14,362 bases of DNA from Actinomycetota bacterium (lineage in GTDB: Bacteria; Actinomycetota; Humimicrobiia; Humimicrobiales; Humimicrobiaceae): positions 1-14,362 of the forward strand of contig JAHIPJ010000136.1 in NCBI GenBank assembly GCA_018894445.1. The letters run 5' to 3'. Position 1 is the stretch's first letter, and every line of letters starts with the position of its first letter. Made by a program: the position numbers and the translations under genes. A model generated the notes under the pieces. It was not told the origin of the DNA and made no database searches. It saw only the letters and a list, made by a program, of their open reading frames with translations. This document shows positions 7,157 to 13,237 of this stretch, in pieces.

Positions 7157-7357
7157 ATGGAAGCAATAAAAAATTTCTTTACACCGGAAAATATGCGCTC
7201 ATTATTTGAAACTATATATACCTGGCTGGAAGATTTACTTATGAGGGTTTTTGGTAATTTAGGATATGAACCTTTAAGGAATTTACTTACCAATCCCTGG
7301 TTCTGGATAATCATACTGGCGTTAATCTTGTTGAGTATCATCTTTAGAAGAAGATAA
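7157..7357 (+). CDS. Small single-pass membrane protein, unknown function
   Basis: This 66-residue ORF is the only plus-strand gene inside the envelope block. It begins with an amphipathic, helix-rich stretch (about 1-45). One strong membrane segment follows (NPWFWIIILALILLSIIF, about 46-63), closed by three arginines, which suggests that the C-terminus stays in the cytoplasm. I recognise no family. The residue order looks like a real protein, whereas the opposite-strand ORF over the same DNA does not. No Shine-Dalgarno site is visible, but a fair promoter places its start almost on the ATG. The 3' end overlaps the tail of the convergent 114-residue membrane protein gene by 36 bp, and the 5' end is 37 bp from the divergent lipoprotein start. 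It could be a regulator or partner of those envelope genes, or a chance ORF. Confidence 0.55.
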   Translation: MEAIKNFFTPENMRSLFETIYTWLEDLLMRVFGNLGYEPLRNLLTNPWFWIIILALILLSIIFRRR

Positions 7358-7666
7358 CCTATTGTTTTTTCCACCAGTTTTTTCCTCACCTGAAAATATT
7401 TTAATCATAAAAGCAATAAAAACAATAATAAAAAATACAGCTATTACCGCAGCCATAAAAGTTCCTGGATTATTTTTAATTTTTTCAATAGTTAGATATA
7501 ACCTTGAATTGTTTTTTTTAAAATAATCTATAAATTTTTCATCCAGTAGTTTTTCATCTGACTTGCCAATATTGGATATTCTATCTATTATTTTTTTATC
7601 TATATCTTTAGAAGGCTCTATAACAGCATCTTTTGCAATTTTTAAATATCTATTTATATTATTCAT
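7322..7666 (-). CDS. Single-pass membrane protein, possible anti-sigma factor
   Basis: This 114-residue protein has a charged N-terminal domain of about 65 residues, one membrane helix (about 69-91) and a short polar tail (93-114) rich in Ser, Lys and Asp. It follows the ECF sigma factor gene by 79 bp on the same strand. A cytoplasmic domain with a single membrane helix next to an ECF sigma gene is the usual plan of an anti-sigma factor. It lacks the zinc anti-sigma motif H-x3-C-x2-C and has no cysteines, so this role rests on context alone. No clear ribosome site precedes the ATG at 7666. It could instead be an unrelated membrane protein. Confidence 0.65.
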   Translation of the reverse strand: MNNINRYLKIAKDAVIEPSKDIDKKIIDRISNIGKSDEKLLDEKFIDYFKKNNSRLYLTIEKIKNNPGTFMAAVIAVFFIIVFIAFMIKIFSGEEKTGGKNNRLSSSKDDTQQD

Positions 7667-10839: not shown

Positions 10840-10910
10840 TTTATATCCTCAATTCTATTAATATAACCAGACCTTCACCAATTATATTATAAATGCAATT
10901 TTCATTCCAT

Positions 10911-10939
10911 ATCATAAAATCATAAAAAATAGCTGTCAA
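10911..10939 (-). promoter_or_regulatory. Strong sigma-A-type promoter of the lipoprotein-HtrA-sigma operon
   Basis: Read on the minus strand, TTGACA (10939-10934) is a perfect -35, followed by a 17-bp spacer and TATGAT (10916-10911), one mismatch from consensus. The predicted leader is about 65 nt to the GTG at 10839. It diverges from the hipB promoters, which begin about 60 bp away. Confidence 0.75.
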
Positions 10940-10986
10940 ATAAAATACACTTTGGCGCATTAAGAATCCCAAAGCTTTATTATTTT

Positions 10987-11004
10987 TATACCCTATATGG
11001 TATA
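10987..11004. promoter_or_regulatory. hip operator O1
   Basis: TATACC-CTATAT-GGTATA is a perfect six-base inverted repeat around a six-base centre, 18 bp in all. This is the same total length as the TATCC-N8-GGATA operators of E. coli HipB. Its right arm overlaps the TATAAT box at 11001-11006. Confidence 0.75.
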
Positions 11005-11006
11005 AT
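10998..11006 (+). promoter_or_regulatory. Extended -10 element inside O1
   Basis: TGGTATAAT combines TG (10998-10999) with a perfect TATAAT (11001-11006). The -35 region is poor. A start near 11013 would give a leader of about 83 nt containing O2 and O3. Confidence 0.45.
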
Positions 11007-11028
11007 TATCAGCTAAATTGTTTTATTT

Positions 11029-11046
11029 TATATCTTAAGGGGTATA
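11029..11046. promoter_or_regulatory. hip operator O2 (one mismatch)
   Basis: TATATC-TTAAGG-GGTATA differs from the O1/O3 arms at one base on the left. Its centre is 42 bp from that of O1 and 41 bp from that of O3, which puts all three on the same face of the helix. Confidence 0.65.
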
Positions 11047-11060
11047 TATATATTTAAATC

Positions 11061-11089
11061 TTTACAATCTATACCTTGCAGGGTATACT
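11061..11089 (+). promoter_or_regulatory. Main hipB promoter, predicted leaderless
   Basis: TTTACA (11061-11066), a 17-bp spacer and TATACT (11084-11089) differ from consensus by one base each. A start seven bases after the -10 falls at 11096, the G of the hipB GTG codon. Operator O3 covers the spacer and most of the -10, so a bound repressor would block polymerase directly. Confidence 0.65.
11070..11087. promoter_or_regulatory. hip operator O3
   Basis: TATACC-TTGCAG-GGTATA is a perfect six-base inverted repeat. It lies between the -35 and the end of the -10 of the main hipB promoter and ends eight bases before the start codon. Confidence 0.75.
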
Positions 11090-11095
11090 ATTTTT

Positions 11096-11308
11096 GTGAA
11101 AGAAAAAAATATAATTAGCGAATTTATTAAAAAGTCAAGAACTGAATCAAAATTAACCCAAAAAGAACTTGCCCTAAAAGCTGGTGTAGGACTCAGATTT
11201 ATAAGAGATGTTGAGCAAGGGAAGATTTCTTTAAGAACAGATACTTTAAATAAGGTTCTCAGACTATTTGGTAAAGTTTTAGGGCCTGTTGATCTGCCAA
11301 AAGAATAA
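11096..11308 (+). CDS. hipB: HipB-like antitoxin and autorepressor (Xre-family helix-turn-helix)
   Basis: This 70-residue DNA-binding protein has an Xre-type helix-turn-helix (about 19-45: LTQKELALKAGVGLRFIRD, then VEQGK) and a tail LFGKVLGPVDLP typical of the HipB/Y4mF antitoxin group. It should dimerise on the three TATACC-N6-GGTATA sites just upstream and repress its own operon; that pairing is inference from position and from known HipB operators. The start is GTG at 11096. The only ribosome-site-like bases (AGGG at 11080) are 12 bases away and inside O3, so translation of a leaderless mRNA is more likely. hipS follows after 22 bp. In known hipBST systems HipB represses, while HipS is the main neutraliser of the toxin. 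Confidence 0.88.
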   Translation: MKEKNIISEFIKKSRTESKLTQKELALKAGVGLRFIRDVEQGKISLRTDTLNKVLRLFGKVLGPVDLPKE

Positions 11309-11330: not shown

Positions 11331-11690
11331 ATGCAGAAAAAAATAAGTGCTGGTATAGTTTATTATAAAAATAAAAAAGCAGGCCTTCTTATTAAAACAA
11401 AGGAAGGATATGAATTCAGCTATAATCTTTCCTATCTTAATGATGATATGGCTAAACCTATTAGTTTGAGTATGCCCATGACAAAGGAAAGGTACAAATC
11501 CCAGACACTTTTTCCATTTTTTGATGGGATTCTTCCTGAAGGTTGGCTTCTCGGTCAAATAAGCTCAGCACTAAAAATAGATAGTAATGATAAGTTTAAT
11601 TTACTTATGCATGTAGGAAGGGATACCGTTGGAGCAGTAAGTATTGTGCCATTAACTGGTTTCCCCAACAAGAAGAAACAAATTAAATAG
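11331..11690 (+). CDS. hipS: HipS antitoxin (stand-alone HipA N-terminal subdomain)
   Basis: This 119-residue protein corresponds to the N-terminal subdomain of HipA kinases (the couple_hipA family) as a separate protein. Conserved pieces are SLSMPMTKE (46-53), FFDGILPEGW (63-72) and HVGRDTVGAVSIVPL (94-108). In the E. coli O127 hipBST system this piece is the antitoxin and blocks the HipT kinase; a HipS tryptophan there is reported to reach the kinase active site, and W72 in PEGW is the likely counterpart here. The ATG at 11331 is chosen because AAAGAGGT lies six bases upstream; a TTG in frame at 11289 would overlap hipB and is unlikely. A stop codon, a 36-bp gap and a new ribosome site separate it from hipT, so the split is genuine and not a frameshift. 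Confidence 0.87.
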   Translation: MQKKISAGIVYYKNKKAGLLIKTKEGYEFSYNLSYLNDDMAKPISLSMPMTKERYKSQTLFPFFDGILPEGWLLGQISSALKIDSNDKFNLLMHVGRDTVGAVSIVPLTGFPNKKKQIK

Positions 11691-11726: not shown

Positions 11727-12650
11727 ATGGAAAAATGTATGTGTTGCCGAAAAGTCATAAGCTATATAGAGAAAAAGTATCACCAGGAATGTATAAAAAA
11801 ATTATTTGGTGTGACCTGGATACCCAAAATTACTATCAACTCCTATGATTTACCTGCTGAAGTAAGGAAAAAAGCTGGAAAAATGTCTATATCAGGAGTG
11901 CAAATAAAAGCATCTGCAAAATTAAACCATAGTGCCAGGATAATTGAGGTTGTAGACCATGGCGCTACGCATATCCTTAAACCTGAACCAGCTGAATATC
12001 CTGAACTACCACAAAATGAAAATCTTTGTATGAATATTGCAGGAGAGCTTGGTATTGAAGTTCCAGCCCATGGACTTTTCTATATGGCAGATGGAAAGCT
12101 TTGTTACATAATTAGAAGGTTTGATAGAACTCTTGATGGTAATAAAATTCATGTAGAAGATATGGCACAGCTGTTGGAATTACCTTCAGATTCTAAGTAT
12201 GAATCTTCAATGGAAAAAGTTGGAAAGGTCATTTTAAAACATGTTAATAATATATACCTTGAGGCGATTAATTTTTTAGAAAGAGTTCTTCTTTGTTTCA
12301 TTATAGGAAATGGCGATATGCATCTAAAAAATTGGTCACTTATTACTAATGAAAATGGCAAAATTAGACTTGCTCCTTGTTATGATTTAGTATCATCGAA
12401 AATATATATACCAAATGAGGATGAATCTGCCCTTACAATAAATGGAAAGCGAAATAATTTAAAGAGGTCTGATTTTGAAGCATTTGCTAAATACTTAAAT
12501 ATTGATTTAAAAGCTGCCCAAAATGTTTTTAATAAAATTATCAATGCTAAAGATAAGATCTTGAATATGATAAATTCAGAAATGAAACCCGAGAGAGTAA
12601 AAAGATTAGAGGAAATTATACTCAAACGTTATGACAGAATCATCGTTTGA
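11727..12650 (+). CDS. hipT: HipT serine/threonine kinase toxin (split HipA kinase)
   Basis: This 307-residue kinase has a HipA-like core. The glycine-rich-loop segment KMSISGVQIK carries the S54-I-S56 pair that in E. coli HipT is autophosphorylated. K85 (HILKPEP) should bind ATP. GNGDMHLKN gives catalytic D197, and D220 in APCYDLVSS should bind magnesium; the two are 23 residues apart. Residues 4-22 hold C4, C7, H19 and C22, which could form a zinc knuckle. E. coli HipT phosphorylates tryptophanyl-tRNA synthetase and stops translation; the target here is untested. All key residues are present, so it is probably active. AGAGGG about seven bases before the ATG is a good ribosome site. The gene ends 46 bp from the convergent HEPN remnant, with no clear terminator between them. 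Confidence 0.9.
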   Translation: MEKCMCCRKVISYIEKKYHQECIKKLFGVTWIPKITINSYDLPAEVRKKAGKMSISGVQIKASAKLNHSARIIEVVDHGATHILKPEPAEYPELPQNENLCMNIAGELGIEVPAHGLFYMADGKLCYIIRRFDRTLDGNKIHVEDMAQLLELPSDSKYESSMEKVGKVILKHVNNIYLEAINFLERVLLCFIIGNGDMHLKNWSLITNENGKIRLAPCYDLVSSKIYIPNEDESALTINGKRNNLKRSDFEAFAKYLNIDLKAAQNVFNKIINAKDKILNMINSEMKPERVKRLEEIILKRYDRIIV

Positions 12651-12696: not shown

Positions 12697-12915
12697 TTAG
12701 ATAAGAAAGAGTTTACCAAAAAGAGTAGACCTATCTATAAAAAGCTCGGGCCTAAATTCATAAAAAAATCTATCAGGCATTACACAAGCCTTTTCAACTG
12801 TTTGTTGAGAAAGAAAACAAACATGCGAATAGAATTTATCTTTTAAACCAGATTTTGCAAAATTTAAATCTTGTTCTGCAAAATAAATCCACTTTTTAAA
12901 AATATCATTTTGCAT
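12697..12915 (-). pseudogene. Truncated HEPN-domain protein (toxin remnant)
   Basis: The first 42 residues match HEPN proteins: KKWIYFAEQDLNFAKSG, then YSHVCFLSQQTVEKA. HEPN toxins of this type are usually about 120-140 residues, with an RNase motif R-x4-6-H in the C-terminal part. Here the family match stops at EKA near residue 42, and 30 unrelated residues follow (from CVMPDRFFYEF) up to a TAA. The catalytic half is therefore missing, and no other frame downstream restores it before hipT. It overlaps the end of the MNT gene by 11 bp (ATG inside the last codons), the standard order for an MNT/HEPN pair. The foreign tail suggests a recombination or insertion point near 12790. It is almost certainly inactive as an RNase. 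Confidence 0.7.
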
Positions 12916-13237
12916 AAATTACTTTACCTTTTGTTACAATTTCTTCTCTAAAAAATAAATTCTTCTCTAATTGTTCGTCATATTCTTCAGGTGTATAAAC
13001 TAAAAAATCTACTCCTATATTATAATTGCAAATCTTTGTAACTTCTCTTAACCTGTCAAAGAACTTACTCTTAGTATCTTTTATTACAAGTAAATCCAGA
13101 TCACTAAAGTTTCTTACTTTGCCAGAAGCATAAGAACCGAAAAGAATAACTTTTTGAGGATTATATTTCTCCTTAAGGTCTATTATTATTCTATCCAGAT
13201 TTTCTTTTAATACTTTTTCTCTTTTATTTTTCATCAT
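12905..13237 (-). CDS. MNT-family nucleotidyltransferase antitoxin
   Basis: This 110-residue minimal nucleotidyltransferase has the motif G34-S35-x10-D46-x-D48 exactly (FGSYASGK, then NFSDLDLL). D77 in IGVDFLVYTPEE is the likely third metal ligand. In HEPN/MNT toxin-antitoxin pairs such proteins add AMP to the HEPN toxin and silence it. Here the antitoxin looks intact while the toxin gene behind it is truncated. Two ATGs (13237 and 13234) are possible; neither has a clear ribosome site. An extended -10 (TGCTATAAT) lies about 40 bp upstream. Confidence 0.87.
   Translation of the reverse strand: MMKNKREKVLKENLDRIIIDLKEKYNPQKVILFGSYASGKVRNFSDLDLLVIKDTKSKFFDRLREVTKICNYNIGVDFLVYTPEEYDEQLEKNLFFREEIVTKGKVIYAK

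Follow-up and report, generated by a model that had tools for sequence, protein, structure and literature searches.

The stretch of DNA analysed here, referred to as the window, covers 14,362 nucleotides of an Actinomycetota genome of the family Humimicrobiaceae (contig JAHIPJ010000136.1, assembly GCA_018894445.1) and carries a hipBST toxin-antitoxin operon preceded by three 18-bp inverted repeats, the putative operators of the regulator HipB. The gene order hipB-hipS-hipT with a split HipA, in which HipS corresponds to the HipA N-terminal domain and HipT to the HipA_C kinase, identifies the operon as HipBST. The best solved relative of HipS is the uncharacterised Haemophilus protein HI_0666, with the Legionella HipS chain in second place, and the closest relatives of hipB occur in metagenome-assembled genomes (MAGs) titled Actinomycetota or Actinobacteria bacterium. 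Coordinates are collected in Table 1; L and G numbers are our labels for loci or stretches and for genomes.

The operator array and its promoter

Scanning the window confirmed the three sites proposed in an earlier sequence-only reading of this DNA, with perfect copies of TATACC-N6-GGTATA at 10987 and 11070, a copy with one mismatch at 11029 and centre distances of 42 and 41 bp; starts are spaced identically, leaving gaps of 24 and 23 bp between the sites. When up to three mismatches are allowed, the whole window holds 21 matches against 7.87 expected, a number reached in 0 of 200 shuffles. The 256 bp from 10840 to 11095 contain three sites with at most one mismatch, and among 5000 dinucleotide shuffles of this region 18 contained one such site and none contained two. 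When the sequence of the arms is left open, perfect 6-6 repeats are fairly common in the same 256 bp, with the observed two equalled or exceeded in 225 of 5000 shuffles; it is the shared motif, not mere palindromy, that exceeds chance upstream of hipB. In the complete genome (G000, 1.24 Mb) the perfect motif occurs only twice, both times within the array, and 14 places match with at most one mismatch compared to 7 for a reversed-motif control.

The sequence-only reading had placed a promoter at every site, and this part did not hold up. Only the proximal site has a -35 element scoring above 3/6, the best candidates for the distal and middle sites reaching 3/6. The letters it quoted after the right arms (TATAAT, TATATA and TATACT) are correct; the TATA in each, however, belongs to the arm itself. 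The promoter of the window is thus tied to a single site, and the TATA of the other two most plausibly belongs to the HipB half-site. A TTGACT replaces TTTACA at the equivalent position and distance in three loci of related genomes (L012, L013 and L016), and distal sites elsewhere in the family reach a -35 score of 4/6. The predicted transcription start lies 0 to 3 nt ahead of the start codon in all six family loci, and since it falls on the hipB GTG in the window, the hipB mRNA is probably leaderless.

Judging from work on Legionella and E. coli, each 18-bp site would take one HipB dimer, alone or together with HipS-HipT. The proximal site is located between the -35 and -10 elements, so HipB binding there should block RNA polymerase, and complexes on adjacent sites, held at a constant distance of about 40-42 bp, would be expected to strengthen the repression.

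Table 1 Features of the hipBST locus and start-to-start operator layouts (bp) in the window and in related genomes
Feature	Location	Strand	Detail
Distal operator	10987..11004	.	perfect TATACC-N6-GGTATA
Middle operator	11029..11046	.	TATATC-N6-GGTATA, one mismatch
-35-like element	11061..11066	+	TTTACA (5/6), 17 bp before the -10
Proximal operator	11070..11087	.	perfect; between -35 and -10, TATA common to site and -10
-10-like element	11084..11089	+	TATACT (5/6); predicted +1 on the GTG at 11096
hipB	11096..11308	+	70 aa, HTH_3 regulator; best solved relative Legionella HipB, 8ezt
hipS	11331..11690	+	119 aa, Couple_hipA (HipA N-terminal domain) antitoxin
hipT	11727..12650	+	307 aa, HipA_C kinase toxin; best solved relatives Legionella HipT, 8ezr and 7vkb
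Start-to-start layout	window		42-41
Start-to-start layout	L012 and L013		42-31-42
Start-to-start layout	L016		41-31-42
Start-to-start layout	L014		31-42, no fourth site in register
Start-to-start layout	L015		41-31-71

Conservation of the array at hipB loci

A hipB of the window type was found in 6 of 35 family genomes searched, including the genome of the window itself. All five others carry three to four sites with at most two mismatches, and 26-29 bp separate the start of the proximal site from the start codon (for the layouts see Table 1). We best read the 42-41 arrangement of the window as a deletion form of the four-site 42-31-42 array of the family: recombination between the two middle sites would drop 31 bp and leave 42-42. 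The array of L012 resembles, by eye, a tandem duplication of a 73-bp unit with two sites per unit, and the L014/L025 locus is decayed, with a stop in hipB and with hipS and hipT short.

Beyond the family, genomes were scanned with a HipB alignment and the best 80 of 234 loci were used, five family loci included; all counts below that refer to 80 loci rest on these. They come from genomes titled Actinomycetota, Elusimicrobia, Bacteroidetes, Deltaproteobacteria and others, and phmmer finds a hipS match in 75 and a hipT match in 71. Between -250 and +5 relative to hipB there are 198 sites with at most two mismatches, whereas 20 rounds of shuffling give 3.25 on average and never more than 7, and a downstream stretch of the same length gives none; at least one site is present in 74 loci, at least two in 65 and at least three in 47. 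Adjacent spacings cluster sharply at 40 (50 times) and 41 bp (40 times), with 42 seen 8 times, 43 four times and 39 once, and a spacing of 31 occurs five times, which equals the number of family loci in the set. Spacings of 82-84 bp, as if one site were skipped, occur 11 times, and six others are single or less regular. TAnnTTTG is the -7 element of Bacteroidota; it lies within 130 bp upstream in 16 of the 62 hipB loci outside Actinomycetota and Elusimicrobia, and at -27 in 8. As a side observation, L060, L074, L079, L089 and L096 hold operator sites and hipB with no hipS or hipT detectable by phmmer in at least about 1.1 kb of downstream sequence.

The association was also examined in reverse, by searching 40 of the 80-locus genomes for exact pairs with a gap of 18-28 bp. 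This returned 14 places in 9 genomes, every one with hipB within 150 bp. Among 395 genomes of Bacteroidota, the phylum of Pontibacter (two of them also among the 40), 15 pair loci were found in 14 genomes, of which 13 adjoin hipB, one adjoins a decayed hipB interrupted by stops and one has no hipB nearby; 46 genomes of the phylum of G132, a MAG titled Deltaproteobacteria, contained no pair. Within the bacterial genomes sampled, finding an exact pair therefore comes close to finding hipB. The sole hipB-free chromosomal pair (L228 in G436:C20, array 7336-7393) lies 22 bp past an abiEii-like gene, in a neighbourhood that also includes abiEi and a QueC-like gene; the only HipB relative of that genome is weak (6e-5) and lies on a different contig.

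The conservation check proposed with the sequence-only reading has been run, and the palindromes are kept upstream of both close and distant hipBST homologues, in the family genomes and across the 80 hipB loci, which bears out its identification of the sites as hip operators of the hipBST operon. Strict four-turn phasing, which it had also proposed, fared less well: with a helical repeat of 10.5 bp, the commonest steps of 40 and 41 bp are out of phase by -69 and -34 degrees, and the 27-28 bp steps of HipBA arrays point towards the opposite face. We regard the three sites as the hipBST operator array, with HipB as the predicted ligand, at a probability of roughly 0.93. Several findings weigh against this assignment. 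The genome of the window holds 11 additional single places with one mismatch, above the 7 of the control. L014 and L015 have a weak -35 (3/6) at their proximal site, and in L015 one of the distal sites comes with a 5/6 -35 at a spacing of 19 bp. Six of the 80 hipB loci lack any site with at most two mismatches, five lack hipS and hipT in the fetched flank and four more lack hipT (L043 and L094 are short loci). In several Elusimicrobia (L027-L042 mostly) the half-sites are asymmetric, for example TGCATCC with GGGTATA, indicating a drifted specificity. That the sites are instead terminators, RNA hairpins or chance AT-rich palindromes is very improbable, since an AT-rich region (24% GC) with arms that could pair in RNA and with common perfect 6-6 repeats might suggest as much, but none of the 5000 shuffles yields the motif twice, spacing is fixed and conserved over phyla at hipB loci, and a control palindrome pair has no viral matches. 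The array is a general feature of the HipBST clade and not a local oddity, with one operator grammar, an 18-bp site at a step of 40-42 bp, common to HipBST operons of several phyla.

Operator step in HipBST and HipBA systems

The closest precedent of the window array is the set of HipBST operators O1-O3 of Legionella. In the available part of the source (PMC10653801) these likewise number three, are 18 nt long with arms of 6 nt and lie at even intervals upstream of hipBST, and the proximal one, the most conserved there, lies over the predicted promoter as it does in the window; the gaps, however, measure 53 bp (about 71 bp centre to centre) as opposed to 24 and 23 bp, and the likeness concerns the described layout, not the letters of the sites. 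The same portion reports that Legionella HipB binds all three operators in gel shifts, which fit HipB-HipT-DNA and HipB-HipS-HipT-DNA complexes. For E. coli, the accessible text of PMC10627512 describes HipB as sufficient to repress its hipBST promoter.

The E. coli K-12 hipBA locus shares with the window an array of 18-bp inverted repeats upstream of hipB. It differs in being a two-gene system and in its half-site, TATCC-N8-GGATA, and its four perfect sites are measured at 28-39-28 bp, which supports the earlier view that the motif of the window is related to yet distinct from that of E. coli. Plasmid-borne HipBA systems (Novosphingobium, Aeromonas, Mesorhizobium, Caulobacter and others) also have 18-bp sites upstream of hipB, several of them with TATACC or TATACG half-sites; unlike the window, they encode full-length HipA and most readable arrays have a 27-bp step. 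They were reached with a viral 27-bp pair as query, which matched just upstream of hipB-hipA on an Aeromonas salmonicida plasmid and upstream of hipB and a 441-aa HipA on a Novosphingobium plasmid, both in arrays with a 27-bp step, and a single site in a third stretch (Priestia) in which no hip genes are annotated. A motif scan of 14 additional plasmid matches gave steps of 27 bp in L361, L365 (one of two steps), L366 and L372, the double step of 54 in L362 and L367, 28 in L368 and 26 in L370, which has no annotated hipA; L360, L363 and L364 have other or no clear sites, and L369, L371 and L373 none in register.

Readable HipBA arrays thus step by 27-28 bp (39 between the E. coli pairs) and HipBST arrays by 40-42 bp, and because of this difference the step probably reflects the architecture of the bound complex. 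A study by Schumacher from 2015 reportedly provides structures bearing on HipA dimerisation in HipA/HipB/operator complexes. Dimerisation of this kind is thought to restrain HipA, as stated in the available part of PMC7029023.

Hip operator pairs in phage genomes

IMG/VR was searched with exact TATACC pairs in which the inner N6 was left free, using gap ranges of 18-28, 0-17 and 29-59 bp. The first range, which allows steps of 36-46 bp, yielded 69 stretches, 49 with a step of 41, 18 with 40 and one each with 42 and 36. Gaps of 0-17 bp added 20 stretches, 16 of them at a step of 27, and gaps of 29-59 bp added 7 with scattered steps, so that 67 of 96 viral TATACC stretches fall at 40-41 bp; a single control palindrome pair gave no match in the same database. 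Before the remaining viral scans, TATACG pairs had been predicted at 27 bp and TATCC pairs at 28 bp. Of 56 TATACG stretches, 55 lie at 27 and one at 35 (30 of 31 by cluster at 27), with hipB near in 6. For TATCC there are at least 120 stretches, and among the matches listed 88 lie at 28, 26 at 27 and 6 elsewhere (32 of 38 by cluster at 27-28), with hipB near in one and hipA alone in another. The viral spacings follow the prediction for both motifs.

These pairs are spread over unlike genomes. Grouping by similarity over 150 bp around the pair, which may join or split lineages, gives 68, 31 and 38 clusters for the three classes, and the DNA flanks of the 68 TATACC clusters are dissimilar to one another. 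The pairs are mostly intergenic, as only 4 of 57, 7 of 28 and 8 of 31 clusters overlap an open reading frame (ORF) of at least 80 aa by more than 20 bp. Among 20 proteins whose genes lie no more than 3.5 kb from a pair, 14 could be assigned to PHROG families (terminases, an endolysin, a helicase, an SbcC-like protein, head-tail proteins and some of unknown function) and 6 have no match there. A DNA search of INPHARED found no close named phage relatives except for a 48-bp terminase match to Flavobacterium phage 11b, and a 59-bp pair and a 45-bp pair gave partial weak matches only; in E. coli genomes the 45-bp pair found chance-level matches only. The region around the pair of L430 matches 198 of 5426 E. 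coli genomes, among the matches listed, over a piece of the terminase small subunit, with the pair itself unmatched.

The existence of the phage pairs as Hip-operator look-alikes is strongly supported at the sequence level. The best reading is that phages repeatedly evolve mimics of Hip operators, perhaps as decoys. We consider it somewhat more probable than an even chance that many unlike phages, some with records above 300 kb, carry one copy of a two-site Hip operator that agrees in half-site and spacing with a Hip system, presumably the one in their hosts, and that these copies are DNA decoys holding HipB-toxin complexes; they would constitute a new anti-toxin-antitoxin element and imply that Hip systems matter to phages. 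This extends the account of the window sites as a hipBST operator array and does not compete with it. Under this reading, TATACC pairs at 40-41 bp would correspond to HipBST, and pairs of TATACG, TATCC or TATACC at 27-28 bp to HipBA. At high phage copy number, the pairs would hold assembled, inactive HipB-toxin complexes on phage DNA, and they might guard HipB against proteolysis, stabilise the antitoxin and keep the toxin neutral during infection. Such a role is consistent with the protection of E. coli HipB from Lon by operator DNA in vitro (available part of PMC3376134) and with the toxin-HipB-DNA complexes of Legionella (PMC10653801, as above).

In favour of decoys, half-site and spacing covary in phages as they do in hosts, with TATACC at 40-41 (HipBST), TATACG at 27 and TATCC at 27-28 (HipBA). 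The unsearched inner bases agree as well: at positions 7-9, 105 hipB operators and 94 viral sites from 40-42 pairs show no difference (chi-square p 0.83, 0.67 and 0.10), whereas 22 viral sites from 25-28 pairs differ from the hipB operators (p 0.003, 0.07 and 0.00006); both strands were counted at half weight, with one viral pair per cluster and host sites unthinned for relatedness. Only 1 of the 96 TATACC stretches has hipB within 400 bp, and each of 28 records counted (10, one of them a hip locus, plus 18) contains one exact pair of the pattern searched.

The presence and absence of pairs could be compared at the end of one terminase gene, for which a motif-free pattern found 123 copies in at least 120 stretches, with 96 distinct downstream stretches. 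Among the matches listed, and accepting up to three mismatches per site at 16-89 bp, 31 of the 96 carry a pair, 28 of these at 41 bp, of which 4 had already been found by the motif search. Mean majority frequency in these pairs is 0.92 for the arms, 0.73 for the spacer, 0.69 for the inner bases and 0.56 for the following bases; arm uniformity stems in part from picking sites by their arms, and the 41-bp spacing is free of that bias and favours a decoy role. The other 65 stretches have no pair, which counts against it. By eye, little beyond the pair differs between filled junctions (L161 and L174) and empty ones (L339 and others). At a second gene end, 6 of 11 stretches carry a pair at 40 bp, 4 of them previously found by motif, and L355, which has neither site, retains part of the spacer and the flank. 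Downstream of the terminase gene, many stretches that lack a Hip pair (e.g. L339 and L345) and some that have one hold another recurrent inverted repeat, GGTTACA-N3-TGTAACC.

Further points speak against decoys. Titrating HipB could instead derepress the toxin operon, one chromosomal pair at an abiE locus has no hipB beside it, and two pairs each are present in three stretches, two of the TATACG class and one of the TATCC class, two of the three (L388 and L466) being hip loci in viral records. Furthermore, only one phage with such a pair has a named host. This is the isolated Caulobacter phage CcrBL9 (MH588546, 322,272 bp), recognised in L408 by an identical 292-aa protein; its host is given as C. 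vibrioides CB15. Its pair at 89285-89329 lies between two annotated tRNA genes, and a third site with one mismatch follows 30 bp on, at 89342. The plasmid hipBA locus of another Caulobacter species (L372) has TATACG-type sites at a step of 27, the half-site and step seen in CcrBL9, and regular inverted repeats are described at C. crescentus hipBA1 and hipBA2 in the available part of PMC7029023.

Alternatively, phage genes could borrow host HipB as a regulator, in which case the pairs would be normal operators at phage promoters. In 53 of the 76 clusters for which both flanks are available, the flanking genes point in one direction, which leaves room for a promoter downstream of the pair, but pairs also occur between convergent genes (13 clusters versus 10 divergent, over the three classes), directly after stop codons and between tRNA genes, and their flanks are dissimilar at the DNA level; we consider this explanation unlikely. 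Less likely still, a phage-encoded or unrelated host protein with a coincident motif might bind the pairs. A HipB profile search of whole viral records (45 of the 69) found no HipB in 44 (E <= 1e-3), as such a binder would allow; against it, exact pairs in sampled bacteria are almost confined to hipB loci, half-site and spacing shift together as between HipBST and HipBA, and the inner sequence agrees.

That just two sites at the right step recur in phages with no adjoining hip genes points, at the level of sequence, to Hip systems acting on phages. Pseudo-ToxI of phage TE is a phage-borne RNA mimic of an antitoxin. Both it and the putative phage Hip pairs would be short nucleic-acid mimics of toxin-antitoxin parts, an RNA there and a double-stranded operator pair here. 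We found no report of phage-borne Hip operators in the literature searched, a search outside which most subscription papers lie. For hip, the first persister locus, an action on phages could be probed in the laboratory pair of Caulobacter crescentus and phage CcrBL9.

Some individual records deserve mention. The same 59-bp pair, letter for letter, occurs in the virus stretches L121, L137, L146 and L170 together with common short flanks that contain inverted GTGTGTA-like repeats; further out the sequences differ, most clearly in L170, and the unit may be a mobile cassette. The 83-kb record IMGVR_UViG_3300033153_006411 (L200 and L375) contains a TATACC pair and a TATACG pair, both with a 27-bp step. 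In the window itself, the minus strand at 12697-13237 holds, convergent to hipT, a HEPN-like ORF of 72 aa, whose match covers only positions 2-38 of 117, and a gene of 110 aa for an MNT-type nucleotidyltransferase; together they make up a second, perhaps truncated, toxin-antitoxin pair.
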